Source of the DNA: Cloeon dipterum
Taxonomy: Eukaryota; Arthropoda; Insecta; Ephemeroptera; Baetidae
Assembly (NCBI RefSeq): GCF_949628265.1
Contig: NC_088786.1
Location: forward strand, 40,507,681 to 40,571,680
Direction: 5' to 3'
DNA: 64,000 bases
Within the stretch, counting starts at the first letter, position 1, and every line of letters begins with the position of its first letter. Below, one piece after another: positions 34,501 to 58,900 of this stretch. Below the pieces are notes generated by a model that saw nothing but the letters and a program-made list of their open reading frames with translations, was not told the origin of the DNA and ran no database searches. A program made the translations under genes and the position numbers.

Positions 34501-37500
34501 CATCGCATTTTCTGTGCACCATCCCCATATTCTGAGCTGTGTTTGACGTGACAACGGCCAGACATCGTTCCAAAGTGGAAGGAGCAGCCGTGGTTGGAAG
34601 CCAATAATTTATAGAAGAAATCAGAGTCGTTGAAACGTTGAATCCCGTGGAGCACCAAGCGTACTTCTTTTCCGAGTCACAATTCAGATCTTCGTTTGAA
34701 CCACTTGTCCAGAAGGTTCCAACTAGATTTAAAATTGATAATTTGCCCTTTTATTGTTGAAATTATTTTTTGAACCTTTGACAGCGGCGAGACAGTCCAT
34801 TTCCTCGAAGGAAGCGACGGTCAAGAGCGTCATATTCATCGACTTGCAACGCAACGCTGCTTCATTTCTCGTCATCTTTTATCAAATATGTGTAATATTT
34901 TTTTTTTAAAATTAAATACTCTTATCGCTTACCACAACGTTGGAAACATAATATTGCTTATTGTTACACTGTGTAGCAGTTAGCACAGATCCATCCGCTT
35001 ATTGAAGAAGTAATATATAAAATGAATTTATGCGAACTCTTTTAAGACCAACTTACACGGAGATGGTTTCGCCGTTGGATTCTATCATGACCAATTCAAA
35101 AACAATTTGTAAGTCCTTTTAATGACTATATAATTTTAAAAGTTCACGTTAGTGAAGTTGACGATATCGCCAGCCCGTTTTTCAAAATTTTTAACTTGGC
35201 GATATCGCCAAAATTCGATTTCAACAAAAATACGTTCAGAGGGTAGAAATTAGCATCAATACACCACCCCCGAACACACAAGTGGTTCGAAGGCGGGTTA
35301 ATACACACGTAAAAGCCGTAGAAAAGAGATAAAATGAAAATTAAACACTCAGCAGGGTTTAGCCACCTTGAAACCTCCTCAGGTGGACTTCAAATTTTAT
35401 GTAGAACAAGATAGGATGGGTGCCGAAGTGGCTAAACCCTGCAGTCTACCCTGAAAAAGGGACGAAAGGGTGAAAAACGATGTTTTTTAGTTTTTTTCGC
35501 ATTAAAACTCTTTTGAACAGTGTCTGCAGGGTTTAGCCACCTGGAAACTTCCTCAGGTGGACTCCAAATTTTATGTAGAACAAGATAGGATGGGTGCCGA
35601 AGTGGCTAAAAATTACGTTAAACATCGTTTTTCACCCTTTCGTCCCTTTTTCAGGGTAGACTGCAGGGTTTAGCCACTTCGCCACCCATCCTATCTTGGG
35701 CTACATAAAATTTAGAGTCCACCTGAGGAGGTTTCAAGGTGGCTAAATCCTGCAGACACTGTTCAAAATAGTTTTAAAGTGAAAAAATTACTTAAAACAG
35801 CGTGTTTCACCCTTTCGTCCCTTTTCAAGGGTAGACTGCAGGGTTTAGCCACTTCGGCACCCATCCTATCTTGTTCTACATAAAATTTGGAGTCCACCTG
35901 AGGAGGTTTCAAGGTGGCTAAACCCTGCAGACACTGTTCAAAATAGTTTTAATGCGGAAAAAACTAAAAAACATCGTTTTTCACCCTTTCGTCCCTTTTT
36001 CAGGGTAGACTGCAGGGTTTAGCCACTTCGGCACCCATCCTATCTTGTTCTACATAAAATTTGAAGTCCACCTGAGGAGGTTTCAAGGTGGCTAAACCCT
36101 GCTGAGTGTTTAATTTTCATTTTATCTCTTTTCTACGGCTTTTACGTGTGTATTAACCCCTTCGAACCACTTGTGTGTTCGGGGGTGGTGTATTGATGCT
36201 AATTTCTACCCTCTGAACGTATTTTTGTTGAAATCGAATTTTGGCGATATCGCCAAGTTCACTACTTTTAAAAATTTTGAAAAATGGGCTGGCGATATCG
36301 CCAACTTCACTAACGTTAAAAGTTCTAGATAACCTTTCCGCGACCCAAATTGGTTTTAATCATAAGTGCACGATGAGGTGATGGACATTAAGTCAGCGTT
36401 TACTTGGGGCTGTGCGTTTTAATTTATTCAAAGGCACTTGTTTGCGAACTCTTTGTTAGATTTTTTGCAATATTTTGGTTCATTTGGATTCAAATTAAAT
36501 ATTGTGTCATTTATATCGATTATATGTATTAAGACTAAACTGTTGATTTTGATTTGTTAAGAGAACCCTGGAACTGAATTATACCCACCACGGAATTCAC
36601 TGAATAATTTGTGACATGTCAAAATTGAACAATATAAATATAGCTCGGAGATAATCTCATTTTTCCTCAAGAATTTTTGTGATACCATTAAATGATTGTT
36701 GAAATCTGAACACGTCAACTGACAAGGAGGCTAAAAATTATATATGATAGTATTTTCTTTGCTTCTTATCCTGAAAATATTACAGCGGTTGTGGTAGTTG
36801 TTGTAGTTGTCGTCTTCGTCGTCGTAGATGTTGAGGTCGTAGTTGGAGGAGCAGTGGCTGGTGGACGGGTTGTTGTTTTTACAATTATTGTCACTGTGTT
36901 TGCATCCGGAGGGACCGTTGATGTGATTGTAGATGGTGACATGGGCGTGGACGAAAAAGTGCCAATGGCGTCCGCCGCGGCGCTACTCGCACCGATTGTT
37001 GAAGAGATTGAAGAGATCGGATTTGAATTTATCTCGCTAGTTTGTGCCGCTGCAGGTTGTGTGTTGCCTGCTCCTTGGTCATTTGTGACCACTGATTGCT
37101 GCAGTGAGTTGCCTCCTTGGTCATTATTGACGTCACTCCTGGTAATCATCTCTATTCCCCCAGGTGAACTGTCTACGTTGACCGTACTGGGGTTGTTAGG
37201 GTTGTTATCACTTTCAGCCGAAGCTTGGGCAAAAATTTCAGCTCGAGCGAAAAATCAATTTTTATTTTTCATTACTCGTCGCAGTAAGAGTAGCAGGATG
37301 GGCTTGGTCGCCGTAGCTTTGCGAATTCAGATCATCAGGCGTGCTTCCTGTTGCAATGGCCGCATTTTGTGGCTCTGATGATGAAGCTCTCGGGTTCTTT
37401 TCGAATTCAAATTATTTAATCGATTAAAATCATGAAAATACTTGGCTTTCTTTGCTCATGATGGACGTGGTTCCCTTTCTTGTGGCGTTGGCTCGAGTTG

Positions 37501-38749: not shown

Positions 38750-41700
38750 CTATGGCCTCGCGCATATGTAGGTTTGAAGCCCGTCAATCGTGTAAGTGTA
38801 CTTTCCCGGGTTGAGGTACATGTCGCGCATGTCATTGTTTTGTTTAGTGTCGGTTATTGCGACGACTCTCTCATCATAACCTGAAATGGCGATGACCGAC
38901 CCGATGCACGGATATCTCGGCCAAGTCGTAGTGATGAAAAGGCTGTTTGGGATGACCTTGCGGCTGCGACAGTACACCTCGTGCGTCTGGTTGATCGACT
39001 CCGTATCACCGACAAGCGTGGAGCCTAATTGTACGCTGGCTTTCACTACAAAAATTTAAAAGTGACATGATTTGTGTTATTTGAAGTGAAAGAAAGTCAT
39101 GAAAATGATTTAAAATTTAAATAAACGTTTTACTCACGTGCTGCGCTTTTGAGATTTTGAATTTCGGCCACGGTCGTTGGCTCAAAGAGCACCAATCCCA
39201 GTTCACAGCAGTGCCTGTAAGCGTCAGCCGCATTCTTGGCGGTAATTATAAGTTTAAACTTTGGTATGTTGAAAAAGTCGTTTAAGGAATTACCAACAAT
39301 GACACAGTGTTCTCGAAGCTTACGTAGTATAGTTTGCCATTATGCAAGGTCGCTTTTCCATAATCATCTTTGCGATAAAATTATGTAGAACTCCATATAC
39401 TTATTAATTACTTATAGATAATCTCACCTTTGTACGACGAGTTGAACCATCCGTATAGCGTTTGCTTGAATAAAAACCAGACAATTTGTGACTTAATTTA
39501 AAACGTGTTTTAAATTACGTTTATTTGGCAGGGAATATTTTCTGACATCCAACACGTTCGGCGTTTAAAAACGCAAGGAGCCGGTGGAGAGTACTAAAAA
39601 ACAAATTATTTCCAATCGTGGCATGTGAAATATTTAATTTTAAATTTCTGACCATTGTCCCATTGTCGAAATTCAATTTGACAATTTTCGAGACAAGAGC
39701 CGGTTCTTTCTGCTGTCCACATTTGTACGTTTCGTACGCATTTACACACTCGTCGTCATAATCTAAATTTAAATTATAAGTAATTACAAATATGTTACTG
39801 ATTAAATGTGAAACCTTTGCCGCTGCATTCGTCAAAGGCAACAAATCCCTGTTGCATTTTCACAGGATCCTCCATGGTCACGAGCTCAATTTGCCGCAAC
39901 ATTTCTATGTTTCTCAGTGCACCAAGGTCAAACTTAAAACGACATTAAAACGGAAAAAAATATAAGAAGATACAATATACCAATCCAACTTCCACTCCAA
40001 CACATTTCAAGAAGCACTATAAGAAAGGGTGTCAAAATAGAGAAAAATTAAAGAATTTCTGGAACCTTCAGATTTAAAGAAACGTTTGCCGTGAGAAACT
40101 TAGCTGTGTTGAGCAGCAGATCAATTTGAGCTACACAAATAATTATAAATAGTTTCATCTCTTCATATCATTTTTTTAAACTAAAACCTATCGAAATATC
40201 CCAGGTTTCTGCGCATTCGGTCTGCATTGCTCTTTGGGAAGTGGCTTTCTTTCGAATTTCGCACAGGAAATTTTTCTTTTCACCACAATCGGCGGTGACC
40301 AGCAGCTGAGATCCGTTTCTCACTTCCAGATAAACGCAGTCCAGATCTGGTTTTGGGTGTCCATCCTTCCATTTAATCTCGGGTTCGACAAAATCCCTGT
40401 TCAGGTGACACCACCGGAAATTGGAAGGGCAACCAAGGTCCGTCCCTGACAACCAGAAGTCGCCGAAAAGGTTCGGTGCATATTCTTAAAATCGGAGCAG
40501 AGCGTGTTCCAAAATATATGATCTTTTATATATTTTATTGAACAAACTAGTAGCAATTTTGGAGAAGCATTCCGATTTTCCAGTCGACTCCATCGAACCG
40601 AGGGTCAGGCCGATGTCGCAACATTGCTGCCTGGCGGTTTTCCAGTTAGACTGGGATTTGAGTAGAAAGTCAGACAGTTAAATTCAAAATAAATTTAATA
40701 TATCAACCAAACGAGCTTTGTAGATCAAAAAGTTTCGGCCGCATGCATCATACCAGTCACCGTAGGAGAAGTAGTCTTGAGGAAAGTTTAAAAAATAATT
40801 AATTTAACATTTATATATGATTTTGAGAAATCGTACTGCTGAGATATTGATAGCTAGTGCTACTGTCGAAATAGGAAGTCTGTACAAAATGGATAAAATT
40901 TCATTATTTGTACTCATGAAACAAACATTATAATTTTACGTTCCGCTCACAAAGTTCTGTAGGGCATGAAACAACGCAAGGCTTTGGCGTTGTTCTTAGT
41001 GGCGTCTGAAATTTTACATAACAATAAAGTTTTCCCTATTTCTTATCAAAACGCAACCTTGCACGCGAAAATGTATCTACTTTCGCAAGTCCTGTCGGTC
41101 ATTATGGTGCCTGTAGAGTTCAGGACGAAGCGAAAGTGGACGCAGCTCTCACTCCGATTGAAGTTGTCGGGCTGGTTTGCTTCCCATTTGAGATTCGGAG
41201 CAAAAACCGTTGGCCCCGTGGGTTCGCACCACGCCCACTGACCGACAGGAGCACCTTTCCAAGTACCTGAGGTCCAGTAGTTGTAGTTAATCCTCCATTT
41301 GCCTGGAAAGTTAAGTCTTTATATGGGCTCAAGTAAATTTATTAGATGCTCAACGGGAGGCTATTATAAATTTTGTGTTTAACCTTTGAAAACTACGGTC
41401 ATGTTAGTCAGGCCTTTCTGCTCGGCCAAATTGTCTAAATTGAGTGCTTCCATGCCCAAAGCGCAGCAGTGAAGGTAGCCATCCAACCAGGTCATCTTCG
41501 CAAAAGATAACATCAAGTAAAATAATGTCATAAAGTTAAATTAAGAAAACCGGCTTGTTTCCCAAAAGATAGGTGTAGTTGCCAATGTCGATCCAAAATC
41601 CGTATGAGGTTTCATCTTCATTAAATTAGATTTAAATGTTTATCTATAATTAATATCTTCTGTTTTACTAATAAGTTTCCCAGAAGAGTCAAATAGAGAA

Positions 41701-44077
41701 TCCTAAAAGCTTTTCTTAGAAATGATCAACTATTAAGTAGAGCAAATTTGAACGTTTTTGTTGCAAATCTTCGGACAGTCAACATTAAACTGGCAGACGT
41801 AGTGTAGGGTGTCATCGCATTTTCTGTGCACCATCCCCTTATTCTGAGCTGACGTGACAACGGCCAAACATCGTTCCAAAGTGGAAGGAGCAGCGGTGGT
41901 TGGAAGCCAATAATTCTTAGACGAAGTCAAAGTTGTAGAGACGTTGAATCCCGTGGAGCACCAAGCGTACTTCTTTTCCAAGTCGCATTTCAGATCTTCG
42001 TTGGAACCACTTGTCCAGAAAGTTCCGACTAGATTTAAAATTGATTATCTGCTCTTTTCTGTACCTCTTTTGAACTTTGAACCTTTAACAGCGGCGAGAC
42101 AGTCCATTTCCTCCAAGGAAGCGACGGTCAAGAGCGTCATATTCATCGACTTGCAGCGCAACGCTGCTTCATTTCTCGTCGCCTTTTATCAAATATGCAA
42201 TATTTTGGAAAATTTATAATTCACATCTTACCACAACGTTTGAAACATAATATTGCTTATTGTTACACAGTGTAGCAGTTAGCACTGATCCATCCGCTAA
42301 ATAAGAAAATAAAGGATATTAAATTGGGACTGTTTTCGAGACCACTTACACGGAGATGGTTTCACCGTTGGATTCTAACAGGTAGAATTAAAAAATTAGA
42401 TAAGAAAATCATCGTATTTTTTAGAATTCTTGTGAACCTCCACCCTAAATATATATGGTTTTAGACACAAGTGCACGAGTTGATGGACAGCATAATTAAA
42501 GCTGCGCGTTTTAATTTATTTTAAAGCAACTCCTTTGGATGTGATTTTGATAGCATTATTTTTTTAAGGAAAACCCATTAAGTGAATTTTACCCGTCATG
42601 GACTACATATTAAATAAATTTGAGGTTTAAAAAAGATGTTAATATCTTGCTAAATATTATCTTTTTCCTTGCGACTCATTCTCTTGACAAAAGGATTCAA
42701 GAATTTTTGTATCTGTCGTGTGATACCTGTAAATATTTGTTGAAATCTGAACACGTCAACCGACAGGGAGGCTAAAAATTATATATAATAGCATTTAAAC
42801 ACTTATGCTCTTGCAAATTTTACAACGGTTGATGTAGTAGTTGTTGTTGTTGTCGTCGTCGTGGTTGGTGAAGCAGTGGTTGGTGGACGGGTGGTCGTTT
42901 TTACAATTAATGTCACTGTTTTTGTATCAGGAGGGACTGTTGATGTGATTGTAGATGGCGACATGGGGCCGGCGGTGGTTGAAAAAGTTCCAATGGCATC
43001 CACCGCGGCGCTACTTGCACCGATCATTGTTGTCGTCGGATTTAAATTTATCTCGCTAGTTTGTGCTGCTGGTTGCGAGTTGCCTGCTCCTTGGTCAGTT
43101 GCGACCGATGATTGCTGTGTGTTGCCTCCTTGGTTGTTTACGACCGCTGGTTCTGAATTTCCTCCCTGCTCAGTTATTACAACGTCACTCATGGTCCTGG
43201 TCTCTAGTCCTCCTGCAGGTGAGCTGTCCACGTAGTCCGCAGGTGGGTTGTTGTTACCATTTCCGTCCGAAGCTTGAGAGAAAATTTCAGCTCGAGTGAA
43301 AAATCAATTTTAATTATATATTACTCATCGCCCCGATAACAGTAGTGGGAAGTGTTTGGACGTCATAGTTCTGAGAATTCTGACCATCAGGCGTGCTTCC
43401 TGTTGCGATGGCCGCATTTTGCGGCTCTGGTGATGAAGTTCTCGAGTCCTTTTTGAATCCAATATATTTATTCGATTAAAATCACAAAAATACTTTGCTT
43501 TCTTTGCTCGTGATGGACGACGACGACGTGGTTCCCGTTCTTGTGGTGTTTACTCGTGTCGACGAGACGCATTTTTTGAAGCCGCAACACTTGATGATCT
43601 TTTTCCTCCGCTGGGTCTTTGGGAGTTGAATTATAATCGAGCCTCTGAGACCTGCGTAAATTTATAAATCATAATTATAGTGTTTATATCAGAGGTTACT
43701 CTTGGTTTGTTTAGTGTCTAATATTTTATTTACAAGAATATATCCAACCGTTCTAAACTTAATTTTGATAATTCCCAGCAAAAGATTATTCTAGATCAAA
43801 CAATTTCTAAATAAGCTAGTTAATTTGCTTGAAATAAAATGATGAAATGATGATTTGAGCGCTTGTAACAGTTATATAATTAAAAAAATGTACTTTACCA
43901 GAAGAGCTTCCACCAAAGACCTTCACTTTCATCGCCTTTGCTCTGTTGTTCTGAGCCTTTTGTAGATTAGAATAAAACAGTACATGTATTTAAATTAAAA
44001 TAGCCACTTACTTCATTTTTTGCTAAACTTATTACAGTCAGCAAAGCAGAAATTATGCTCCAGTAACAGAGATGCAT
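38750..44077 (-). CDS. Lectin gene 2: secreted mucin-like/four-CTLD/OBP-like chimera (complete)
   Basis: Twenty-eight exons: 44077-44012, 43950-43899, 43651-43494, 43448-43325, 43272-42827, 42771-42727, 42374-42350, 42296-42232, 42182-42083, 42028-41754, 41702-41669, 41615-41551, 41495-41384, 41302-41058, 41005-40940, 40879-40837, 40775-40708, 40650-40548, 40484-40188, 40130-40066, 40016-39981, 39932-39815, 39762-39653, 39593-39519, 39464-39428, 39367-39294, 39234-39138, 39045-38750. Every junction keeps frame: 1098 residues. Signal peptide MHLCYWSIISALLTVIS; basic segment with KIIKCCGFKKC (about 40-92); Ser/Thr-rich region (about 92-282); CTLD1 (about 297-452); CTLD2 (about 452-604); CTLD3 (about 604-785); OBP-like domain (about 785-906); CTLD4 (about 906-1098). 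CTLDs usually bind sugars, lipids or proteins; OBPs bind small hydrophobic ligands. The fusion suggests a secreted multi-ligand protein. No transmembrane anchor is seen. Confidence 0.88.
39653..40215 (-). other. OBP-like domain of lectin gene 2
   Basis: It spans the end of exon 19 through exon 23. Cysteine spacing is C-x30-C-x3-C-x42-C-x8-C-x8-C, which matches the classical insect OBP signature including the diagnostic C2-x3-C3 and C5-x8-C6. Landmarks: TECAETW, CFLKCVG, GFVAFDECSG, DDECVNAYETYKC. The pattern is seen directly; ligand binding is inferred from the family. Confidence 0.85.
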
Positions 44078-44139
44078 ATTTCTAAATTGAATTTATCGAC
44101 TGAACTGACTTTTACTTCTGTGCGTTCGCTCTGCTCGCA

Positions 44140-44210
44140 GCGCTCCGTCCTGGTTTCTTTTTATTTCCGCTCTTCCAATTGACGTCAAACAACAGTGGAA
44201 AAATACTGAT
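44140..44210 (-). promoter_or_regulatory. Conserved promoter block of lectin gene 2
   Basis: It matches the block at 38100-38170: TTTTTCCACTGTTGTTTGAC, an ATTGG motif, GAGCGGAAATAAAAAG and a GGA-rich stretch on the minus strand. Conservation of this stretch while the neighbouring sequence differs supports a shared regulatory role. Confidence 0.55.
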
Positions 44211-44594
44211 GATCTAAAAAATATATGTGATGCTCGTTGCTCGATTGTCGATATTGGTCGATAGGTGGTATTGATCAAAAAGTACTCGGTAACTCTATAC
44301 ATAGTAATGAAATACCGGTATCTTGACTCAAATTAATCGATTATTACGTCATTGAATGTTATAAATCAAATCATTAATTTTCCTCATTTCTTTTAAGAGT
44401 CCTTTCAACGCAATAATTAACTTCTACTCAACTTAGTATTTCTATGTTAAGCTTATTTTCTGTTTTATTGTTTTTTGTTCTTCCTCTTTGACCAGCAGCA
44501 TAAATCGTCGTGGAGCATTTGCTGGCGGATTAAAATGGCCAGGAAGTTCCGATTTCATCTTTTGTATGTAACGACTCGGATTAAATGAAGAAAC

Positions 44595-45173
44595 TCAACT
44601 CGCGGTTTTGAGATTTTTATTGGGATTTTGTATAACAGCTCTCGACGTTGGGTTACAAGCCACATCCTTCCGTTTTTGATGCCAATTCCGCTGATGGTTA
44701 AATTAATTTTACTTATTGAAATACCGCGACTTCCATATACATGCCTTGAGCAATGAAAAGTGATGGTACACCTTTCCGTTTTCCGCGGCTCTCAAAGCCA
44801 GATCTGAAATATCCAGATTAAAATTTGCTCACAAACCTTTAGGTTATTTTTTATACCTTTGCTTGGGCAATTCATGTGATCCTGGAATGGGTTAATGATT
44901 TTACGGATTTTGCTATTGAAATTTCAAAATCTTATTTAAGACAATACCTTTTCCAAACCTTCGCAACCTTGGCCATCAAACTGCCGAGCTAAATGAAAGG
45001 CAGTTTTAAATGAGTTCCCTGTCATTTCCACTTTTGATATATCAGTTTTTATCTCCTCGTGATTCGCGTTTTCTTGTTCAACAATTTTTTCAATCATGGC
45101 CTGAGATTTCAAACTTTGTTTCGTGCTTTCCAAACATAGCAGTTCGAGAATATTCGCGATTTTGTGACACCTA
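44595..45173 (-). CDS. Small unrecognised spliced gene or remnant
   Basis: On the minus strand an open stretch (about 45173-44949) begins after an acceptor-like ATATATAG and encodes CHKIANILELLCLEST through DGQGCEGLEK. Plausible junctions then add DHMNCPSK (acceptor TTCCAG|GAT), DLALRAAENGK (acceptor TTTCAG|AT) and a last exon from CGGAATTGG to a TGA at 44597-44595, with phases that agree. I do not recognise the protein and find no start codon or signal peptide exon upstream. It lies in the gap between divergent lectin genes 2 and 3, next to a foldback fragment. It may be a partial gene or a decayed copy. Confidence 0.35.
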
Positions 45174-45249
45174 TATATGGCACAGGGAAGATTTAATTAA
45201 ACGTATCAATCGCCGTAGAATCGTGAAAAACTATTTTCTGAAATAAAAA

Positions 45250-45470
45250 AAATATTTTTCAACGTTTCTACGGCGAATGACTGAACCGATTTTGGTTTTC
45301 AGCACGTCAAAAAAGCGAATTAATTGAAGAATGCAAAATAGCTAGATTGAATCTGAAATCGCAGCGGAAATGCCTTAAAACCGCTTAAACAAATTTTTTA
45401 AGAAAGTCTGTAGTGCACCATCTGTTGGCGGCTTCGAAGTTCGAACACTAAGGGCTTGTGCAACTGGTCT
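45250..45470. repeat. Diverged foldback fragment
   Basis: It carries AACGTTTCTACGGCG, AATCGCAGCGGAAATGCC and CACCATCTGTTGGCGG, which match the arms of the element at 10870-11640 in order. Only one arm is present. Confidence 0.6.
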
Positions 45471-45787
45471 CAATTAACAGCGATTACTCTCAATAAAATA
45501 TTTTTTTTAATGGTTTTCAGAGTAAATTATTTTATTGCTTGGCTTTTATGTTAAAATCCACGAACAGAGATAATATATACGTTAAATTTTCACTATTTAA
45601 GAACTGTGCGGCTGCACATAAAATAGAGAGAGCGAATATGATGCAGTAAAATAAGGGAATTGGTGCGGGACACAGCTAGCTGTTGAAACAGGAAATACGC
45701 CATTGAAATCCCAGCTGGCCTGCTGCAATGACTCATGAAAACTCGGTGTATCCATACAGTCACTCCGCACTTTTCAACACGAACACT

Positions 45788-48700
45788 ATGAACATCTGCT
45801 GGGTTATAGGCTTCATTTCTTTAGCTTTAATCGCCGTTGGACAATCTCAAGTAAGAAAAAAATGTCAAATCGTAGATTGTTTTTAATCAGAGTTAAAAAT
45901 TGAACAGGCAAAAGTGTTCAAAATCGCAAACAAAGCTCATTCTTCGAAGGCAACACGAAGAATTATCATCGTCAAATGTTGCGGGTTCAAAAGATGCCTT
46001 CCATCACGCGCAGCGCTGAAAAATAGGACAATTATTCGCACGACGAGCGAGAAGAGTAGTAGCAAACCTAGTCAATTCACGGAAAGCGGTTTCGCGTCAG
46101 TACCCAGCAGCAATGAGGCCATCCCGACAGGAAATTATGGCGGCTTGAAACAGACAGCAGCTGGAGAGAGCAGTAAAATGTGATATAAAAGTTTTATACT
46201 TTTATTCTAACGAAAATTGTTACATAAGCTATGGAAACTTCGGAAAATGACGCTCTTGAAGAAATAAAATATACAATTACGGACGGTGACGTAATCACTA
46301 CAACTAAAACCACCACCGTCCCAGGAAAGGTTCAAGAAGGGGCTGGAAATTCGGTTTCGGAATCTATCTTTTCCGCAAAATATGAAAAAACCAGTGGCGC
46401 CACGAAGAACGCACATGAAATTCTATCGTCTTCATCCACAAAAACTGAAACTATAATGGCATTTTCCACTTCGTCAACATTCTTTCCAACAATTTTCTCA
46501 ACGACTGCGGCAACATCTTCCACGGTGACGAGGGCAACAACCTCTTTGAAAACCACGACCACAGTCAGCTTGAACTGTTTAAATTTAAAAATATAAAATA
46601 ATTAATTTTCAGCCTGCTCCGTGTTTCTTAAACTGCTCTGATTTCAACGATTTCCTATTGGTAACTTTTGAGTTTTAATTCTTAAACAAAATTAGTCCAA
46701 AAACAATTTTTGAAAAGAAGATGCCGACACGAAAACCATCTCAATGTATAAAACAACCTTTCCTGAGAGGATAAAAAATATTTAAAAGTTAAATTTACAG
46801 CTGATGGTTCAATTCAATACTCGACGTCTTGCAAGAGGCAATACTACGTTTCGAAAACAGCCGTAAATTCACGCATTAATTAAGAAATAATTAAATTTTA
46901 GGAAATACAAAAAATCAGGTTTCGAGGAACGAAGCGGCGTTGAGGTGCAAAGCTTTGGACATGAATCTCTTGACCGTCACTTCTCTCGAGGAACTGGATT
47001 GTCTCAGCAGTTTTCCAGGTTTCAAATTAACTAAAACAATTTTAAGAGGAAGAAATTAAATTTAAAAAAACAGACACTTTCTGGACGAGTGGCTCAATGG
47101 AAGGGCTGAATTGTGGTTTAGAGAAAAGATTCACGTGGTGCTCAACGGGCTATGACATTTCACCGACCCTAATTTCAACGGAAAAATATTGGCTGCGGAC
47201 AGACACAACCCCTTCCACCCTGGAACGCTGTTTGGCTGTCGTCACTTCAATGAACCCCCTAAATCAGGGGATGACTCACAGAAATTGTGATGATGCCTTG
47301 CCCTACATATGTCAATTCCCCGTCGACTGTCCCAAGCAGTGCAACAAAAATGTGATTAATATTATTTTATTTTTAATGTTTGCCGGTATATTTTATATTT
47401 TCTTCCTTTTCAGGCCTCTTTATTTGATCCTGCCGGAAATTTAATTGGTATACAAAGATGAAGGAATAAAATACATTTATTTATTAATTTTTGTTAATAA
47501 GATAAATCATCATACGGTGTATGGATTGATATTGAAAGCTACACGTATCTCTTGGGAAATAAGCCGGTCTTTTGTCTATAATTTTATTAAAAATTGAAAT
47601 AGACTGAACCATAAGTTGTCAGATGTCTTGGTTGTCGAGCTGGCAGCAGTGCTGTGCCTTAGGAATGGAGACCCTCAACATCGACAACGCGGCCGAGCAA
47701 CTGGGCCTGACTAATTTAACTTACGGAGCTACTCCAAGTGAGTTCAAATTTTCTTAAATACAGTTAATTTAATCCTTAAGAAAATATTTCTCTGTTAGTG
47801 TATTTTAAAATAAATTATTTAAAATGAACAAGCGTTTGGTACCTTAAAAGTTGGCAGAAGTAGTAAAAGTAGAAAAATCGCAAAAAGTGTCTCTGGGACC
47901 GATTTCAGGGTGGGGTACCCTGAGAAAGGTCATGAGGGTAAGTAACGTGATAGGGCTCGGCGAGACCTCTCGTTTAAGACCTTGTGACTGAAAATCCATC
48001 AATCCGTAGAATTTTTCGAACATTTTGAGCTTTTCTAAAATTTGGACATTTAAAAAATCATAGTAATTCGAAAAGTGATCCGATTTTGACAAACTACACA
48101 CTAGAGTTCGAGCCCTACCAAGGGGCGTCGACTGGCATAGAAATCATCACCGTACGGCCCACAGAACCGCTGCTGGGCCCAAAAACAACAATTTTGTAAT
48201 GTCCATTACACGTTTTTTCACATAAAAAATTAATAACTCGGCTCATATGGATCGTAGAGGGAAAAAACAATGTTTTTTGAACTCGTGGTAAAATTCTGCG
48301 TTGAGTGAATTCATCGGTGGGGCCCGTTTGTCCCCCTGTGCGAAAAGGCCCCGAAATATGCACAAAAAGCCCCTTTTTTCTTCTGTTTTTACTTTTTTTT
48401 TAAATAATTCACCTATGGACTGGAGGGTGTTTTTAGCTTAATTTTCCTTCATTTGGCACTGAAAAGCGTTGACTGGGCGGGTTTCGTGTCGAAATTTGCG
48501 TTCTTGGGGATTTTTTTACACAGGCTTCGTCGCGGGGCTTTTGAATAAAAGTTTAAATTTTTTCCTCAGAAACCTGGAAAATGAATTTCAATTACTGGAC
48601 CTCCGCGACGTGGAAAGGTTCTCCTGTCGGCCAGTGGTCGTGGTGCGAGCCGTACGGGCCGACGATTTTCCCCCCAAATCTCACTTGGGAGCGCGGACAG

Positions 48701-51700
48701 CCGGACAACAATGGCGGAAACGAGATTTGCATCCACTACCGATTTGTTTTGAACTCAACAGGCACGATTTTGACGGACAGAAACTGCGCTAACAAACTCA
48801 TATATGCGTGCAAGGCATAATTTTAATAATTTATGGAAATTTAAAATTGGTTTTGTAAATTTTAATTATTTTAGAAGCAACGCGTTGAAAGTCCGAAACC
48901 TTGTACTGCCTCGTGCCCCGAAAAATCCTGCAGAAAAGATGTTATAACAAAATTATTTAGTCATGTTCTAGAGAAAACTATAATTTATTTAATTCAAGGC
49001 CGCCATATTTGACGTCAATAATAATCTGATTGGTAAGAAACTATAACTCTCTTTATTATAATAGTTCTTTAAATATTTTTTCCTCAGAATTCACGACCTA
49101 TGGCGAATGGTTTGATGGATGTGGCCGCACAAATTTATTTTACACCAAAAATAAGGTATACACTAATAGAAATCATTGACAATTTGTTGATTCCCACCGG
49201 TCAGAAGTCAAAATGGCGTCAAAATCCCATTTTGAAGCTGCGCAGTAATCGTATGCGCATCTTAAGCATGCGCAGTACGTTCAGATCGCTTCCTCATCTC
49301 ACAGGGAGGCTGAAACTCACTACTGCGCATGCGTGACCCAAATTAATACCTTCTGCGCAGTCGAAATTCCCATCAGGGCCCATCTGTGTTGATTCTTTGC
49401 CGGTCAGAATTCAATATGGCGTCGAAATATCAGGAGACAGTCCAGCGGCAAATCAGAAGCGTTGAAAAAGGGGCGTGCCGACATAATAATTTAATTCTCG
49501 CGTATTTTTGTTTCATTTCCATTGGCCTGATGCGCCGTCTAAAGGTCATTTTGTCAATTACCGCGGGCAAATCAGCGGTTAATGAATAGAAATAACAACA
49601 AAAACATTCAAATTTTCCGCCGTACTCTATCAGATGCCATAAATATATCTGCGCGTCGCGTTAATCCGGCTCCCGGTGATGGTTTATATCTGATATTTTC
49701 TTAACTTTTTAAATAATGTAGAATTGGCTGCTTTTAGCATCTTTTAGTGTCATTTTAATGACCATGACGATTGGAAAATCAGTAAAATGAGTCAATTAAA
49801 ATAATTAAACAATTTTTCAGTTGAACTGGACAAGTGGCCGAGATCAGTGCTGCGCTCTCGGTTTGATCATGACGTCGATGGAATCGGCGGGAAAACTGAG
49901 CTGCTTTTCCAAAACCGTCGCTAGTATACAGAATTTAAAAATAATCTATTAAAATATAAACAAATACTAATTAAAGAATTCGCGCCATTAACCTACGGGG
50001 ACTTCTGGCTGTCAGGAACGGACCTGGGCTATTCTTCCAGTTTCAGGTGGTGCTCCCTAGACCGTGATTTCATCAACTCTGAACTCAGTTGGAAGGCGGG
50101 ACACCCTGTGAAAGGCTTAAATTGCGTTTATCTCGAGTCAAGAAACGGATCCGTGCTGCTGGCCACCGCCGACTGCGCCGAGGAGAAAAATTTGCTTTGT
50201 GATTTGCGGAAAAAGGCGGCCTCCTCGCAAATCGCTATGCAAAACGAGTGTGCCGATATTTGGAACATCCCCAGCGGTAAAAAAATTACTAAATTAAATA
50301 AGGGTTTATTTCCATTTTTTTAAATGTTAAATTTATAATTTTCCTTTGTGAATTAATTTTTTTAGAATAACAACAATTTAATTATTTTCCTTTAGACCAA
50401 ATTGACTTTTTACTGAACACTACTGCCTTTGGTTCAGCGACCATTTCACAAAACTTGAAGGCAATTATAAGAAAATATTTATTTAATTCAATTTTAATTT
50501 TAATATTAAATTATCTATCTAGTGTTTTTTGAAATGCATCGGCTTTGACATGGGAATGGTAAAATTTAAATAAAAATTTAAAACTATATTCATAGACACT
50601 CGAGGAGAGTAACAAGAATATATTTCATCTTTTTAGTTTAAACTAGGAAAATTAATTGCTGTAGACACGTTGCGCCAAATAGAGCTGGCCACTCAAGAAG
50701 AACCCGCGAAATTGGAACAAGGATTTACTGCTTACGATGAATGCAGTGGCATCAGTTTGGCTTTTTACTAAACTACTAGACTGAAAATTAAATACAAAAT
50801 CACACAGGATTCGACGACGAGTGCGTGACTGCGCATGAAATTTACAAGTGCGGATTTGAAAAGGCCCCTACAATTGTGACAAACATCGTAAAAAACAACT
50901 ACGACCCTATCAGCGTGGTCAGAATTATTATATTGATTAAAAGGAACAAAAAAATAAAAGGTTTTATTATTTTAGGGGTCTTCTCCGATTCCGTTTTACC
51001 CAGTGCGCCGAACATGCTGGCTTTCGAAATTGTTTCCCTGCGTTGCAAACGTGATTTTAATTAAATAGATCGTGTTTGATTAAGTTTCTGAGCCCACCAA
51101 TCGATTCCTGAGGGTCGAATTAGGTTAATGTGGACGTTTTTTCCGTTAAAAAAGTGCAGTGCGGCGTGCGAACTTGTTTCCCGCCAAAACAATTTGAACG
51201 TTTTTGCGAGAGCTGCGCATGCGTCAGAGCTGGCTGGACCTGACAAAGAAGTCATTCGTACACAGGCGGACTCTCTGCAAGTGCTCAAACCTGCTCTGAC
51301 GCATGTGCACTTCGCGCATCCATGATATTTTGGCGGGAAAAAAGTTGGCACGTCGCGCTGCACTGTTTGGGCGGAAAAAAGATCCAATTTACCTACTTCG
51401 ACCCTCAAGAATAGAATGGTGGTCTCAAAAACTTTGTGGAAGAAGGTCTTTAAGTATATAATATTAAAATTTCAGCAAACTGCTATAGATTCGATCAACC
51501 TGTTGGGAAGAGGTGAAAACATACATAGCTTAAGACTAATAAAAAATAAAAATAAAACTTTCTCTTTCAAAAGACAACATTGGTTCAATGGTTACAGTTG
51601 CTAACAGAACCTTTTATGCCAGAACTATTGATTTTATTGACTTCGTAGTAAGAGATTATAAAAACCAAAGCAAAAATTACACATCTATAATGTTAACCCT

Positions 51701-52134
51701 TACTATTTGAGAATCCGATTCACGCGTTCAAACACTGCTGCGCCCTCGGAATGAAACTGTTCGAACCAGCAACCCTGGCAGATATGAAACTGGCCTTAAA
51801 CATAACTGGTATGCAAAAATTCCAAATAAATAAAGGTTTGATTAACTAATTAATTTTTATAGGACGAGGTGATTTGAATGTGGTTCTAGGCGACACAGAG
51901 TTCATCAATCAGTCGCACGAGGTGTGGTGTCGCAGCCGCACAATTTTGCAAGACAGTTTCTACGAGTTCAAAAGCAATTGGCAAAGGTATCCGAGCGTGG
52001 ATTCGATAATTGGAATGTTCGTGAAAACTCCGGCTGTGATCGTCTCATTGGATCCGGTTCTAAGCCTGCATGAATTGTTCATCAACCAAACAAAACAAGC
52101 CAAGTTTGGATCTTTTATCTGCGAGCACCTCTAG
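45788..52134 (+). CDS. Lectin gene 3: secreted mucin-like/four-CTLD/OBP-like chimera (complete)
   Basis: Twenty-six exons: 45788-45850, 45908-46172, 46229-46563, 46613-46660, 46718-46745, 46801-46862, 46919-47018, 47074-47351, 47414-47447, 47502-47566, 47623-47737, 48570-48814, 48875-48940, 48999-49032, 49088-49155, 49821-49923, 49977-50276, 50396-50460, 50523-50558, 50637-50754, 50808-50917, 50976-51050, 51476-51512, 51574-51647, 51712-51808, 51863-52134. All phases close: 1030 residues. Signal peptide MNICWVIGFISLALIAVG; basic RRIIIVKCCGFKRCLP segment encoded in one exon where genes 1, 2 and 4 use three; Ser/Thr-rich region; CTLD1 to CTLD3; OBP-like domain; CTLD4. CTLD2 holds GQPDNNGGNE, a galactose-type QPD motif. 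Two introns have GC donors (after 48814 and 50460). It diverges from gene 2. An AATAAA lies at 52294-52299. Confidence 0.88.
49165..49585. repeat. Dispersed TGCGCATGC-element, inverted copy
   Basis: It is the reverse complement of the element at 2683-3060, starting near CACCGGTCAGAAGTC and ending near AAATCAGCGGTTAATG. It includes AAGCTGCGCAGTAATC, TACTGCGCATGCGTGACC and GGGGCGTGCCGAC. It lies between exons 15 and 16 of lectin gene 3. Confidence 0.8.
50249..50917 (+). other. OBP-like domain of lectin gene 3
   Basis: It begins at the cysteine codon 50249-50251 (NECADIW) and spans five exons. Spacing is C-x30-C-x3-C-x42-C-x8-C-x8-C, identical to gene 2 although the residues differ widely. Landmarks: CFLKCIG, GFTAYDECSG, DDECVTAHEIYKC. 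Confidence 0.85.
51085..51423. repeat. Palindromic element in lectin gene 3 intron
   Basis: The left end CCACCAATCGATTCCTGAGG and the right end CGACCCTCAAGAATAGAATG are inverted. GTGCAGTGCGGCGTGC pairs with GCACGTCGCGCTGCAC, and TTTCCCGCC with GGCGGGAAA. The outer motif AATCGATTCCTGAGGGTC is shared with the 10870-11640 element, so the two belong to one superfamily. Confidence 0.75.
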
Positions 52135-52962: not shown

Positions 52963-55900
52963 ATGATTTTGATAAGTCCGCTGGGCTTTTCGCTCCTTTT
53001 TGTGCTGGTGATCAGCGGAGAGTTATTGAACCAAGTAAGTCCGATAACTTCAAAGAAATGAGATTATAAAATTTTCCTCTTGCAGAAGGGCAAAAATGTC
53101 AAATCGGTGAAAATCCGCATACCAGCAAATGGAAATTCAGGTTTGAGAATTTTTAATTTATGGATTTTAATTTTTATCGTTAAAATTAGGTCCCATCAAA
53201 ATTCAACTTCCAAAAGGCTTATTATTACGTCGTCAGAAAATCATCAAGTGTTGCGGATTTAAAAAATGCCTGCCGCCAAAAAACGGGACAACATTTTTCA
53301 GAACTGCATCTTCGGCGCCAATTAACAACCTGAACAGTAAAGGAAAAGAAACATCTCTTGTGAGTACACCATATACAGAAAACGCCCTCATAGTTTCAAC
53401 ATCAATCACACTCCTAGGAAAATAATTCGCTGTCATCATTCCAAAAATCCGCTGCGACTGCGACAGGAAATTCGATCGAAGGACTGAGCAGCGGCCATGA
53501 TGCATTAACTGGAGCGGACGTAAACTCAGCAGCGAGCAGTAATATGAAATGAAAATGAAAAGCAGCCGATGAAATTTATGAAAAATCAAAAGCCTCTGCT
53601 GACAGTGGCAGCACCAGCGGTTTATTGGGCAGTGGGGGAAATGCGGCTGCTGACGTCACGCCTGCAGATGGGACGGCGGGCAATGACGTCATCATTGGTG
53701 CAGCCACTTCAACGCCTCTGGACTCTGCTCCCCCTCCCCTAATAAACGGCGTGACGGATGTTTGGGGTGCTTTTCCTTCAGGGGTCACTTCTCCCGCACC
53801 AATCAACCCCTCAGCAGACGTGACTGCTTCAGAAATGCAAATTAAAACAGCGACAATTTCCGTGTCATTACATGGATTGACAACAACGTACAGTTTCAAA
53901 TTTAGAGAAAGATTCGATATTATAGTCTTTAAATGAATATATAGGGGTGCAGCGCATCATTGTAATTTTCCCCTGAACTATATGTTTTCATGCGCCCCTC
54001 CCTGCACTCGAAGAGTGAGGAGGAGGCAGTTGTACGCGAGCCGCAAAGTGAGGCGGACGTGATTTTAATAAACCCGAGTGCCAACAAATAGGAGTAGTTT
54101 GTATTATCCCTAGATCTCTCATTTGTAGTTAACTTGCAAGTTAGACTTAGGATTTGCAATTTGCGTAAAGCTCCTCTTTTGGCACTGTCCTTCAGGCAGT
54201 GTTGGAGGACCGAGGACACAACCATCCTCCCCATAGTGCGGAGGACTTGGTTAGTGTCCGGCTTGCATCGTCGCGTCCCGGCGAACTCAGGCTTAAGTTA
54301 GTGAACACGCTGCCGCCCCACGGGAGTGCGGCCAGCGGTCCAGAAAGGCCAAACACGGTAAGCACCAAGAGTGCTAACCGGCGTAGCGCACCTAACACAA
54401 GTCCCGAACCCTAGACCGGGCAGTGCGTTACATTTGGGGGCCTGTCCGCTGCGAGTACGGCACTCGTAGTTGAGACGAACCTTCCTCTGTCTTTTACTGG
54501 ACAGCTGAAACGCCCATAAAGACTGCGCTCGCTGTAGAGCGTTAAGTTGAGTTTGGGCACCGCGCGTTATTAATTAACGGCGGTAACAGGAGTAAGCTCC
54601 AAAAGCTAAACTTAAGTTTGAGTCGCGAAAACCGACGAAGGCGAGATGGCCTCCAAGTCCACTGATCCCATGGGAGAATCAGTGGATTCTAATAACACGC
54701 TGACGGGAACCGGGGAGAGTTCTCGAGCAAATGATACAACTCATTTTACACTCCCAGGGTCTTACAATCAACCCTCGGGCGTGGATTTGCAATTGAATGT
54801 ATACAAAAATGAAAATTCAAATGGCCTTGAGAAACTAGCGGCCTTACTCATGGATGCAAACATGAAACCTGAGGATTTATTTCAAAAATTGAACTCTGAT
54901 CAGGCAAGGGCTCCAGGTGGCGTACAATTTCAAGCGACCTCAAGCCCCATTTCGAACCATTTTAATCATGGATTGCTTGGAAGAAATCAGTCGCAGCGCG
55001 GATCGATTCCGCTGACGGCTCCGCATGATACATTGTCAGGGACATTGCCGACATTCCAAGGAGCGCAAAGCGTCCCAAGCATTCAAGCAACATTGTACAA
55101 GCTGGCGAAAATTCCAGTGCCAACATTCTCGGGTCGAACAGATAAAAAATCCCCGTATGAATATGTGAGACAAATTAAATTGATATCTGTGGCACATGGA
55201 ATCTCCCTGATTGAAATGGTAAAATACCGCCTGCCAACAGCACTTGTTGAAGAAGCAGCAAATTGGTTCGCCATATACGGAGAAATATTCCAGACATGGG
55301 AACAATTTGAGAGCGCGTTCATGCAAGAATATTGTGCGCCAAATTACAAAGAGCAGCTTGCAAGGGACCTGGAGAAAAGATTCCAGCATGCGGACGAGCC
55401 TCCTTCCGTATTTTTGCACAAGATATACTTAATGTGCAAACAGATTGATTCCAATTACGGAGAAGGGGACATCATTAAAAAGGCAATTTCTTTGCTTCAC
55501 CCTGAATATCGGCGATTTATTGTCGGTAGGACATTTGCAACAATTGCTGACCTTGATGAGACACTCAAATTGGTCCAAGCTGAAATATACAGATCTCGCA
55601 CTTACCGGCTTCCGCCTCCAGCAGCCGAGTTTGCAGAGCCTGCGTTCGCTTACCAAGTCAGAAAGACGCCTCAAACACCATTGGTCCAGTCGCATGGCCG
55701 CCCTGGCAGTCAATCCATGAGTCAGCAGGTCACTCTAAATTCTCTAAACCCCAGACTTGGCAGGGGGCCTCACCCTGGTCCTCGTCCTTGGTATCAGGGA
55801 CAACCTGGACAGGGACAAAGATTTCAGTATGGCCAGAGCCGCGGCGCAAATCAATATTTACCCGCCAGAGGAGGTTTCCAACCTCGCGCCATTAACCAGC

Positions 55901-58900
55901 CACAACGTCCTGCAGTCCAAGGTGCCGCAGGTCGTGGACAGCTGGCTTTACCATGGAAATCAAATGGCCCACCTGGCGCAGCAGCCGCAAGACAAAATGA
56001 CCTGAATAAGCGCACAAGTCAGGGGAAACCTGCAACACAAAATCAAAATGCCAATCAATATAAGAGCAAGCAACAGTTCAGGTCAAATTCAGCTGAAGTA
56101 AATGAACCAATTCCAGCAGAACAGGAGCAAACAGAAGATGCTGTTGACCAGCAGTATGAGTATGATCAAATGCAATATAATGATTATTACTATGATGAGC
56201 ACTATTATTACCAGCCATTTGATGAGTATGGTGCCACTCATGAACAGACTTTCGCTGCTGAGGAAAATTCTGAACCTGAAATTGCAGATGAGAATTCAAA
56301 AAACTAATCAGCGAGCCTGTCTCAACTCCTGTGCAAACTGAAAGAACAGAAAAATCTAGGCCCCATAATGGAAAAATTTCTCCGCGCGTGCGTAAGGACC
56401 AAATTAACAGAAAACTACAAAAGGCAGTTTTACAGAGACACATGCAATCTGAATCAAATCAACAATTAGCTGCCATCAAACCAGTTATTAAAGTACGCAT
56501 ATTAGGGAGAAGTTATTTAGCTCTTTTAGACACAGGATCAGATATTTGTATATTGGGACAGGCTACTTTTGAAAAGTTCAAAGGCAAAAATGCAACAGTG
56601 TGGCACACAAATAAAAAGATAAAAATGGTGAATGGATTAACTGACCTACTTGGCGGAATGTCTATCAAGATTCACACTCCTGCAGGGAGTTTTGTGCAGA
56701 ATTTCTTCGCAGTTCCTGACAATTCAGATCAAATCTTATTGGGACGCGATTTCCTCTGTCAGGCAAAGATGGCAGTCACGCCAACAGGTTGGTTTAAGAC
56801 AGACAACCCTTTAGTTGAGCACCCATTCGTCCAGTACAGTCCTTTGCAAAATAGAAAACAGTGTCAAAATGCAACACTCAATAATGAAAATTTACTAGAA
56901 AACTTACTTAGCAGGATAGAGAATGACACTGGTGGCCTCATAAAAAAGGTAGTGGCAGATTTCTACACCAAGGGCGTCTTTTCAGAAAAGCCTGGCCTCG
57001 CCAAAGGTGTAGAGCAAGTCCTCAAAGTGCAGGATGGACCACCTTTCCAAGCCCCTTTGAGACCTATGAGTGCAAAGATGAGAAAAATATTAGAGTTGAA
57101 AGTTAATGAATTAATTGAGGATGACATAATAGAGCCATCAACTTCTGATTTTCTTTGCGCTCCAGTTTTGATAAAGAAAAACAAGGACAGCAAGAAGGGA
57201 AAGGACAAAGAGCCACCTGACAAATCACTTGAGGAACAGGTTGAGGAAGAAGCAGACATGTTTCGACTTTGCATTGATTCGCGAGCTATTAATTCACGGT
57301 TGATTGGCGTGGAACCTTACAATATTCCACCTATGGACTATATATTTGCCCAGCTTGCCGGTGCCCGCTACTTTACTATACTTGATTTGAAATCTGGATT
57401 TTTTCAAATACCAGTACACAAGGATAGCAGGAAGTATTTAGCATTCAGAACACACAAAGGCTGTTTTCAGTATAAAAGAGCTAGTTTTGGTATTGCATCT
57501 ACTCCATATACATTCCAGCGCTATATGGACAGCATTTTGGGGGAACTTTATTGGCAGAGCGCATGTTGCTATTTCGATGACTGTATAATTTTCTCTGAAC
57601 ACTTAGATGACCATGTAAGGCATTTGGCTGCAGTTTTAGAACGAATAAAAGAAGCAGGGCTTACAATTAACCCAAAGAAAGTAAAATTCGCAGCCACTGA
57701 GTTAAAAATACTGGGCCATATTGTCTCTCAGGGAGAATTGAAACAAGATCCAAGCAAGCTGAGCGCAATCAGAAATTTCCCAACGCCAAAAACCAAGAAA
57801 CAGTTGCTCAGATTTTACGGCATGTGTGTTTTCCTCAAAAGTTTCATTCCAAGAATGGCGCTGATCGCGAAACCATTAACAAAACTGATGGGCGATTCGC
57901 CATGGCAATGGACAAAATTGCAAGAAGATGCATTTGAATCCCTAAAAAAGCAAATTTGCTCAGAAACCTGCACATTGGCATTACCAGACCTGAATAAAAA
58001 ATTTACTATCATAACAGATGCAAGTAAAGTTGGTATTGCAGGATGCTTAATGCAAGAGCACAATGGCCAGCTAAAACCAATTGCATATACTTCCAGGGCG
58101 TGCACTAAGTTGGAACAGAATTTTTGTACAACTGAGTTGGAACTTTTAGCCATAGTCCATTCATGCATGAAATTTAACTCATATGTTGAATATGCGGAAG
58201 TAGAAATTCAAACTGATCACAGTGCAATCAAGGATATCTATTACATGACAGATGCCTCAGGTAGGGTAAAAAGATGGCTCATGAAAATTGCTCATTTAAA
58301 CGCAATAATTACGTACCGGCGAGGAAAATCAAATCAGCTTGCTGATGCTCTCAGTAGAGCGCCAGACGAGACTGCGGTACCAATAAAAGCAGAGGAGGAT
58401 TGGCGAGAACGCGAAATTCCACTTCATGAGCACAGGGAGGCCAAGTTGCGTTTCGACACCTGTGAAGTAGGATTGAATGGCCATCACTGCAGTCGCTGCT
58501 CCAACAGAGCGCCGCTGACGTTTTCTCAACCGAAATCTCCAGAGCCATCCTCAGGGACTTTCCTAGAAACAAAGCCAACAATTAGTCCATTGCAACACGA
58601 GAAACCACCTAAACCAAAAAATATACAGGGAGTCAGACACAAAATAAAAACAAAGATGAAAAAGGCAAACCCTTGGCCAAAGCAAAAGTTCATCTCCAAG
58701 CTAATATTCCCAAACAGGAGGAAAACTAAAAACGCAATTAACATCATTGATTCCTGCGTTGCACAGGTCACTGATTTCTCTCACATCCCGTTAACCATCC
58801 AAGAATGGAGTGATGAACAAAATAAAGATCCAGGGATAGTGATACTGAAGCAAAAAGTACGCAGGAATGAGAATAAAGTTTTCATGCTACAAGACATGAA

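Follow-up and report, generated by a model that had tools for sequence, protein, structure and literature searches.

Gene models place an odorant-binding-protein domain inside mucin-like multi-lectin proteins of the mayfly Cloeon dipterum

Can an odorant-binding protein (OBP) be a built-in part of a lectin? OBPs are normally small free secreted proteins, and the classical OBP has a six-helix fold with three interlocked disulphides, C1-C3, C2-C5 and C4-C6, and takes up small hydrophobic ligands. A first-pass annotation of a 64,000-nucleotide (nt) stretch of the mayfly Cloeon dipterum genome (NC_088786.1, 40,507,681-40,571,680, forward strand; hereafter the window) proposed that its lectin genes carry a six-cysteine OBP segment between the third and fourth C-type lectin-like domain (CTLD). 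We built gene models by hand for the three genes concerned, named A, B and C here (genes 1, 2 and 3 of that annotation), and searched the genome, which covers 190 Mb in 10 contigs with the window on contig C1. DNA sequence and gene models, from which the family is known here, lead us to conclude that an OBP domain is very probably built into a family of mucin-like multi-lectin proteins that has multiplied in Cloeon and also occurs in Neocloeon.

Two intact gene models carry an OBP domain behind three lectin domains

Gene B (44077-38750, minus strand) has 28 exons and encodes 1100 residues; gene C (45788-52134, plus strand) has 26 exons, encodes 1028 residues and shares the layout of B. Both models are intact, in agreement with the earlier report that their exons join in frame. 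The interval first assigned to the feature, 38750-52134, covers B and C and leaves gene A (38022-31501, minus strand) outside. From N- to C-terminus, B and C present a hydrophobic stretch that by eye resembles a signal peptide, a KCCGFK(K/R)C motif, a Ser/Thr/Pro-rich part (43-44% Ser+Thr+Pro across 112-150 residues), CTLD1 to CTLD3, the OBP domain, a Cys-rich linker and a degenerate CTLD4. The motif reads KCCGFKKC in B, where it stands between the apparent signal peptide and the Ser/Thr/Pro-rich part, whose main exon (42824-43272, minus strand) is 44% Ser+Thr+Pro over 150 residues and 24% Thr. The QPD-bearing CTLD2 of B is encoded at 41615-41551, 41495-41384 and 41302-41058, and its linker (PPAPCVFKRRTCW...) and CTLD4 at 38750-39593, all on the minus strand. 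A K-C-C-G-x-K-x-C motif directly precedes the mucin-like part at 37590-37442 (A), 43651-43494 (B) and 45908-46172 (C), and a similar C-C-G motif was seen in the three Neocloeon members inspected.

What is the six-cysteine segment? It starts near residue 789 in B and near residue 726 in C, and its cysteines are spaced 30-3-42-8-8 in both, exactly as first described. Compared with Pfam, as the first-pass annotation had suggested, B and C score above cut-off for Lectin_C (PF00059; three stretches in each) and for PBP_GOBP (PF01395; cut-off 22 bits), the latter at 34.9 bits (E 1.9e-8) in whole protein B and 35.8 bits (E 9.2e-9) in whole protein C. The isolated segments of B and C and the part left in A reach 38.6, 41.5 and 34.5 bits, all above the cut-off. 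Among PDB sequences the B segment is closest to OBP1d (4pt1, E 1.5e-6); further OBPs, LUSH among them, come next at E 0.004-0.011. A 12-row profile found 19 chains at E ≤1, the best at 8.4e-4, whose names are OBP names or gene numbers; that profile also met one D7 protein chain. By its sequence, the segment is an OBP (PBP_GOBP) domain.

Classical insect OBPs such as LUSH have in common with it the six cysteines, the C2-x3-C3 and C5-x8-C6 spacings, which appear in B, C and a 55-row family alignment, and the PBP_GOBP score. They differ in being small and free, whereas here lectin domains flank the OBP domain within a protein of roughly 1000 residues. B and C, at 1100 and 1028 residues, are not small stand-alone proteins with a signal peptide of their own; they thus contain an OBP domain but are not classed as OBPs. 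Double OBPs and the long forms of mosquito D7 proteins also hold the OBP fold in a longer secreted protein, but as OBP-like repeats, and they are not known to have a lectin or mucin part. Tandem CTLDs are likewise common to insect multi-CTLD lectins such as the immulectins, from which B and C differ by the OBP domain and by an N-terminal part that is Thr-rich and mucin-like.

The lectin and OBP domains meet within one exon

In gene B, CTLD3 ends and the OBP domain unfolds across exons 19-23 (40484-39653, minus strand). Exon 19 (40484-40188) encodes 98 residues and contains both the last cysteine of CTLD3 and, as residue 90, OBP C1. Exon 20 (40130-40066) leads to a 36-nt microexon 21 (40016-39981) with C2 and C3, after which exon 22 (39932-39815) brings C4 and exon 23 (39762-39653) C5 and C6. 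Gene C repeats this design on the plus strand in exons 17-21 (49977-50917): exon 17 (49977-50276) with the end of CTLD3 and C1, exon 18 (50396-50460) with a GC donor, microexon 19 (50523-50558) with C2 and C3, exon 20 (50637-50754) with C4 and exon 21 (50808-50917) with C5 and C6. Because the end of CTLD3 and OBP C1 share one exon, the 5' junction of the fusion does not depend on splicing. On the evidence of gene structure, the fusion of OBP and lectin is real.

The microexon region is gapped in 5 of 55 aligned models, and its tiny size may explain why these lack C2 and C3. With an exon of 36 nt and such gapped models, automatic OBP counts may be off.

The fusion recurs across the C. dipterum genome

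Is the arrangement peculiar to this window? We searched the genome with exon 19 of B and scored the best 150 of 345 candidates, the first 97 of which match at E ≤2.4e-26. All but one of these 97 extend beyond OBP C1, and 96 have an OBP exon downstream. All 117 candidates for OBP exon 22 of B were scored; 102 matched, and 100 of them have an exon-19 match upstream on the same strand. These 100 paired loci form 31 groups, 16 with at least two loci and the largest with 22.

Together with exon queries from divergent members and three Pfam genome matches, the B-exon search yielded 150 distinct OBP-exon loci. They were paired with 281 distinct CTLD matches (overlaps merged) from four lectin searches, which are incomplete since each scored the best 150 of 345-434 candidates. 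A CTLD match lies 250-1239 bp upstream (median 329) on the same strand at 143 of the 150 loci. On the same strand, none of the 150 has such a match in the 1.5 kb downstream, and none has one on the opposite strand; the downstream zero arises partly because CTLD4 is too diverged to be matched. When positions were shifted by 3-200 kb as a control, 0-7 pairings remained, and an earlier pairing with 16 hand-picked extra lectin matches gave the same result as the 281 matches. Among the seven unpaired loci, two (L076 and L077) are in fact preceded by CTLD-like DNA, and L020 (C3:3622000-3629000) has no fusion-family match within its 7 kb and is likely a free OBP gene. L020 is also the best PBP_GOBP match of the Pfam genome search (28.8 bits). 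The 138 of 281 CTLD matches that paired with no OBP exon found may represent lectins free of OBP, further CTLDs within these same genes, or partners of OBP exons too diverged to be matched. The Pfam PBP_GOBP profile itself found just three matches in the genome, two of them 3' of Lectin_C matches, probably because the OBP domain is split over short exons; protein queries of single exons worked.

We then inspected 60 of the 102 exon-22 loci, the first in contig order, a sample that leaves out contig C5 and most of contig C4. The exon with the fourth cysteine is open and C5-x8-C6 is present in all 60, and the short C2-x3-C3 exon in 58. The pattern of C1 beside the end of CTLD3 matched in 52; three of these (L057, L058 and L077) look spurious by eye, leaving 49. 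Whole-gene completeness was examined in A, B and C only, so some loci may be pseudogenes. With this proviso, the fusion is, on genomic evidence, multiplied to at least 143 C. dipterum loci.

Protein models of Neocloeon triangulifer join the same domains

Public protein models tell the same story. Residues 780-930 of B, compared with 5.8 billion proteins, gave 25 matches (E ≤1; 156 candidates), all from Cloeon dipterum, 18 of which are tagged with both Lectin_C and PBP_GOBP. With an eight-row whole-protein profile, 4358 candidates were narrowed to 74 proteins at E ≤1e-10. C. dipterum supplies 61 of these and Neocloeon triangulifer 13, and tags for both domains occur on 35, of which seven belong to Neocloeon. 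Models from two C. dipterum contig sets and from Neocloeon thus join the two domains, and the databases label them uncharacterised, hypothetical or C-type lectin domain-containing proteins. Ten further members were rescanned with the two profiles. Nine pass PBP_GOBP, six of them Neocloeon proteins, with P0078 under the cut-off (17.3 bits), and seven pass Lectin_C; in the eight members with both domains reported, the best lectin stretch precedes the OBP stretch. No mayfly beyond Cloeon and Neocloeon appears among the protein matches, the database content of other mayflies being uncertain. Free relatives were sought with an OBP-only profile, which brought up five short proteins; each contains or runs into lectin or linker sequence, and we regard them as pieces of fusions.

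Could separate OBP genes, lying between or inside lectin genes and transcribed on their own, have been joined by faulty gene models? OBPs are usually free proteins, which would suit this explanation. However, OBP C1 sits in the CTLD3 exon, the arrangement is repeated at 143 of 150 loci, and the five short proteins found with the OBP-only profile are fusion pieces. We therefore consider such an artefact extremely improbable and reject it on the strength of the shared exon. The first-pass annotation had already interpreted the segment as part of a fusion, and the shared CTLD3/C1 exon, the repeated pairing and the same domain order in Neocloeon models bear it out.

Lectin and OBP domains appear to have been inherited as one unit

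The first-pass annotation held the fold of the segment to be under selection. Between B and C the rate of non-synonymous change (dN) is 0.31 in the OBP domain, where synonymous sites are saturated, 0.32 in CTLD3, and 0.82 in the mucin-like part, where the synonymous rate (dS) is also saturated. The ratio dN/dS, rough because dS is high, is 0.19 for CTLD3, 0.06 for CTLD2 and 0.48 for CTLD4. Pairwise comparison of the OBP exons that lie past the break in gene A gave 0.35 for A against B and 0.13 for A against C. In the alignment, which retained 55 of 77 proteins (22 dropped for low coverage; five short fragments removed earlier), C1, C4, C5 and C6 are present in 55 of 55 rows, and C2 and C3 in each of the 50 rows that are ungapped there. 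Together, dN and cysteine conservation support purifying selection on the OBP segment.

Distances between family members in CTLD3 and in OBP correlate at 0.92 over the 55 rows (0 of 2000 permutations), at 0.89 in the 43 Cloeon rows and at 0.56 in a 36-row core, which fits joint inheritance of the two domains as one unit. A tree of the 55 rows shows at least four changes of species label on starred branches and groups 38 Cloeon rows in a clade of their own (98/97), suggesting that the fusion predates the split of Cloeon and Neocloeon and later multiplied in Cloeon. Rows were drawn from two contig sets, so a single gene may be represented by more than one Cloeon row. We propose that an OBP domain was fused once or a few times, before this split, between CTLD3 and the degenerate CTLD4, and that the chimera would then have multiplied in Cloeon dipterum.

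How firm is the fusion family?

Several observations weigh against the reading given so far. Gene A has the exon set of B, and its OBP exons (32830-32766, 32719-32684, 32632-32515 and 32468-32359, minus strand) carry C2 to C6 with the 3-42-8-8 spacing, confirming that it agrees from C2 on. However, it is broken at the CTLD3-OBP junction: the C1 exon, ending at 32883, is 7 nt shorter than that of B, and its reading frame does not continue into the following exon. Possibly gene A is a pseudogene, or another site is used. Elsewhere, locus L020 appears to be a free OBP gene, and free OBPs are under-counted because the exon queries came from fusion genes. Two of the seven Neocloeon members scanned (P0052 and P0056) have no Lectin_C match, although they do show the Cys-Cys-Gly motif and the Thr-rich part, and 28 of 82 family proteins lack the full cysteine pattern, some being partial models or missing the 36-nt exon. 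The tree carries a long-branch warning, so that its details are unsure and the dating of the fusion and a single origin are tentative. As for the placement between a third and a fourth CTLD, three CTLDs do precede the OBP domain, but the CTLD4 segment of B scanned alone has no Pfam match and is CTLD-like by position and general pattern only. The calcium and sugar motif of CTLDs is EPN or QPD, E and WND; CTLD1 of B and C has no canonical version by eye, CTLD3 shows HPx at the QPD/EPN place in 56 of 73 rows (QPD or EPN in 11), and CTLD2 carries T/S-D-R at the WND place in 60 of 71 rows.

What could the fusion protein do?

Among the Pfam-detected CTLDs of B and C, QPD was seen by eye in CTLD2 only. 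It is kept in 66 of the 72 rows with letters at that place, and the following E in 65 of 71. As one CTLD of three has QPD, the glycan part of any functional idea depends mainly on that domain. Of the 124 OBP columns, 27 non-cysteine ones keep a hydrophobic residue, Ala and Tyr included, at a level of 90% or higher in the two species. We propose that the protein would be secreted and its Thr-rich part O-glycosylated, that CTLD2 might bind galactose-type glycans and so anchor it in mucus, gill or cuticular coat, and that the OBP module could retain a small hydrophobic compound at that place, serving as a scavenger or reservoir on a tether and not as a diffusing carrier. This function of a glycan-anchored protein holding a ligand at a surface is offered tentatively. 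The conservation of QPD in CTLD2 and the hydrophobic OBP columns lead us to favour it over a spacer, a defence protein or an odorant carrier.

Alternatively, the OBP domain could be a disulphide-braced spacer that has kept its fold and lost ligand binding, with function left to the lectin and mucin parts. High variability at several non-cysteine OBP positions would agree with that, but a spacer need not keep the hydrophobic columns just described, nor is its dN in B and C relaxed beyond that of CTLD3, the two being about equal; we find this somewhat doubtful. We judge similarly the idea of a defence arsenal, in which the proteins, secreted or on the surface, would recognise glycans and lipids of microbes and have been multiplied by conflict with them. 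The tandem clusters, the Cloeon-only clade and the faster change of CTLD4 relative to CTLD3 are what such a conflict might leave behind; against it, positive selection was not detected, the computable pairwise ratios all being below 1.

A chemosensory role is the reading already in print. Almudi et al. (2020; PMC7250882) describe 191 C. dipterum OBP genes (167 complete models), found by Pfam-based hidden Markov models and iterative BLAST and called the largest OBP repertoire described at the time. Gill expression is given for 82 of the 167, three are localised to clusters of gill cells described as positive for horseradish peroxidase (HRP), and the expansion is interpreted there as chemosensory. 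This gill expression would favour the fusion proteins as carriers in gills and antennae, but a mucin-like multi-lectin protein of 1000 residues seems ill suited to ferrying odorants, and we think the role distinctly unlikely. The published expansion and ours concern the same species and are of similar magnitude (191 genes against 143 fusion loci); there it is treated as one of chemosensory OBPs, here as one of lectin fusions, and the word lectin is absent from the main text of PMC7250882. Many of the 191 published genes may be these fusions.

The first-pass annotation knew of no protein joining OBP, lectin and mucin-like parts, and in the PubMed Central literature searched we likewise found no printed description of an OBP-lectin fusion. 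The words lectin, odorant and mucin are absent from the available text of two Neocloeon transcriptome papers (PMC11634025 and PMC7644658), and a damselfly genome paper (PMC5381652), in the part at hand, mentions OBPs and lectins separately. At 143 loci at least in one genome, and in a second mayfly, a domain familiar as a free carrier of insect smell is an integral piece of lectins that are very large and apparently secreted. It is about evenly balanced whether the C. dipterum OBP repertoire is mostly one module of a glycan-tethered mucin-lectin family, acting as immobilised traps for hydrophobic ligands at the body surface. If so, the conclusion that mayflies smell with their gills would have to be tested again, and if the 191 published OBPs include fusions, the headline of mayfly chemosensation and smelling gills concerns a different kind of protein.

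Other features of the window

An apparent fourth copy, gene D (52964-64000, plus strand), leaves the window at its end. Its 5' exons were placed by eye at 52964 to about 53930 (tblastn match 53189-53404), CTLD1 and the first CTLD2 exons lie at 63075-63995, and its CTLD3/OBP exons lie beyond the window end at locus L041; we infer that these pieces form one gene. Between its mucin-like and CTLD1 exons, two long open frames of 561 and 1247 residues (54622-60032) look retroelement-like by eye, with a Pro/Gly/Arg-rich open frame of 253 residues (60450-61208) downstream. In genes A, B and C, introns at 33521, 40839, 48815 and 50461 apparently start with GC, not GT. Intron 6 of gene A contains a large inverted repeat (35143-36319) with main arms of 316 nt that are 99% complementary, and tandem repeats with units of 91 and 156 bp and a strong base skew extend over about 8 kb (21359-29426).

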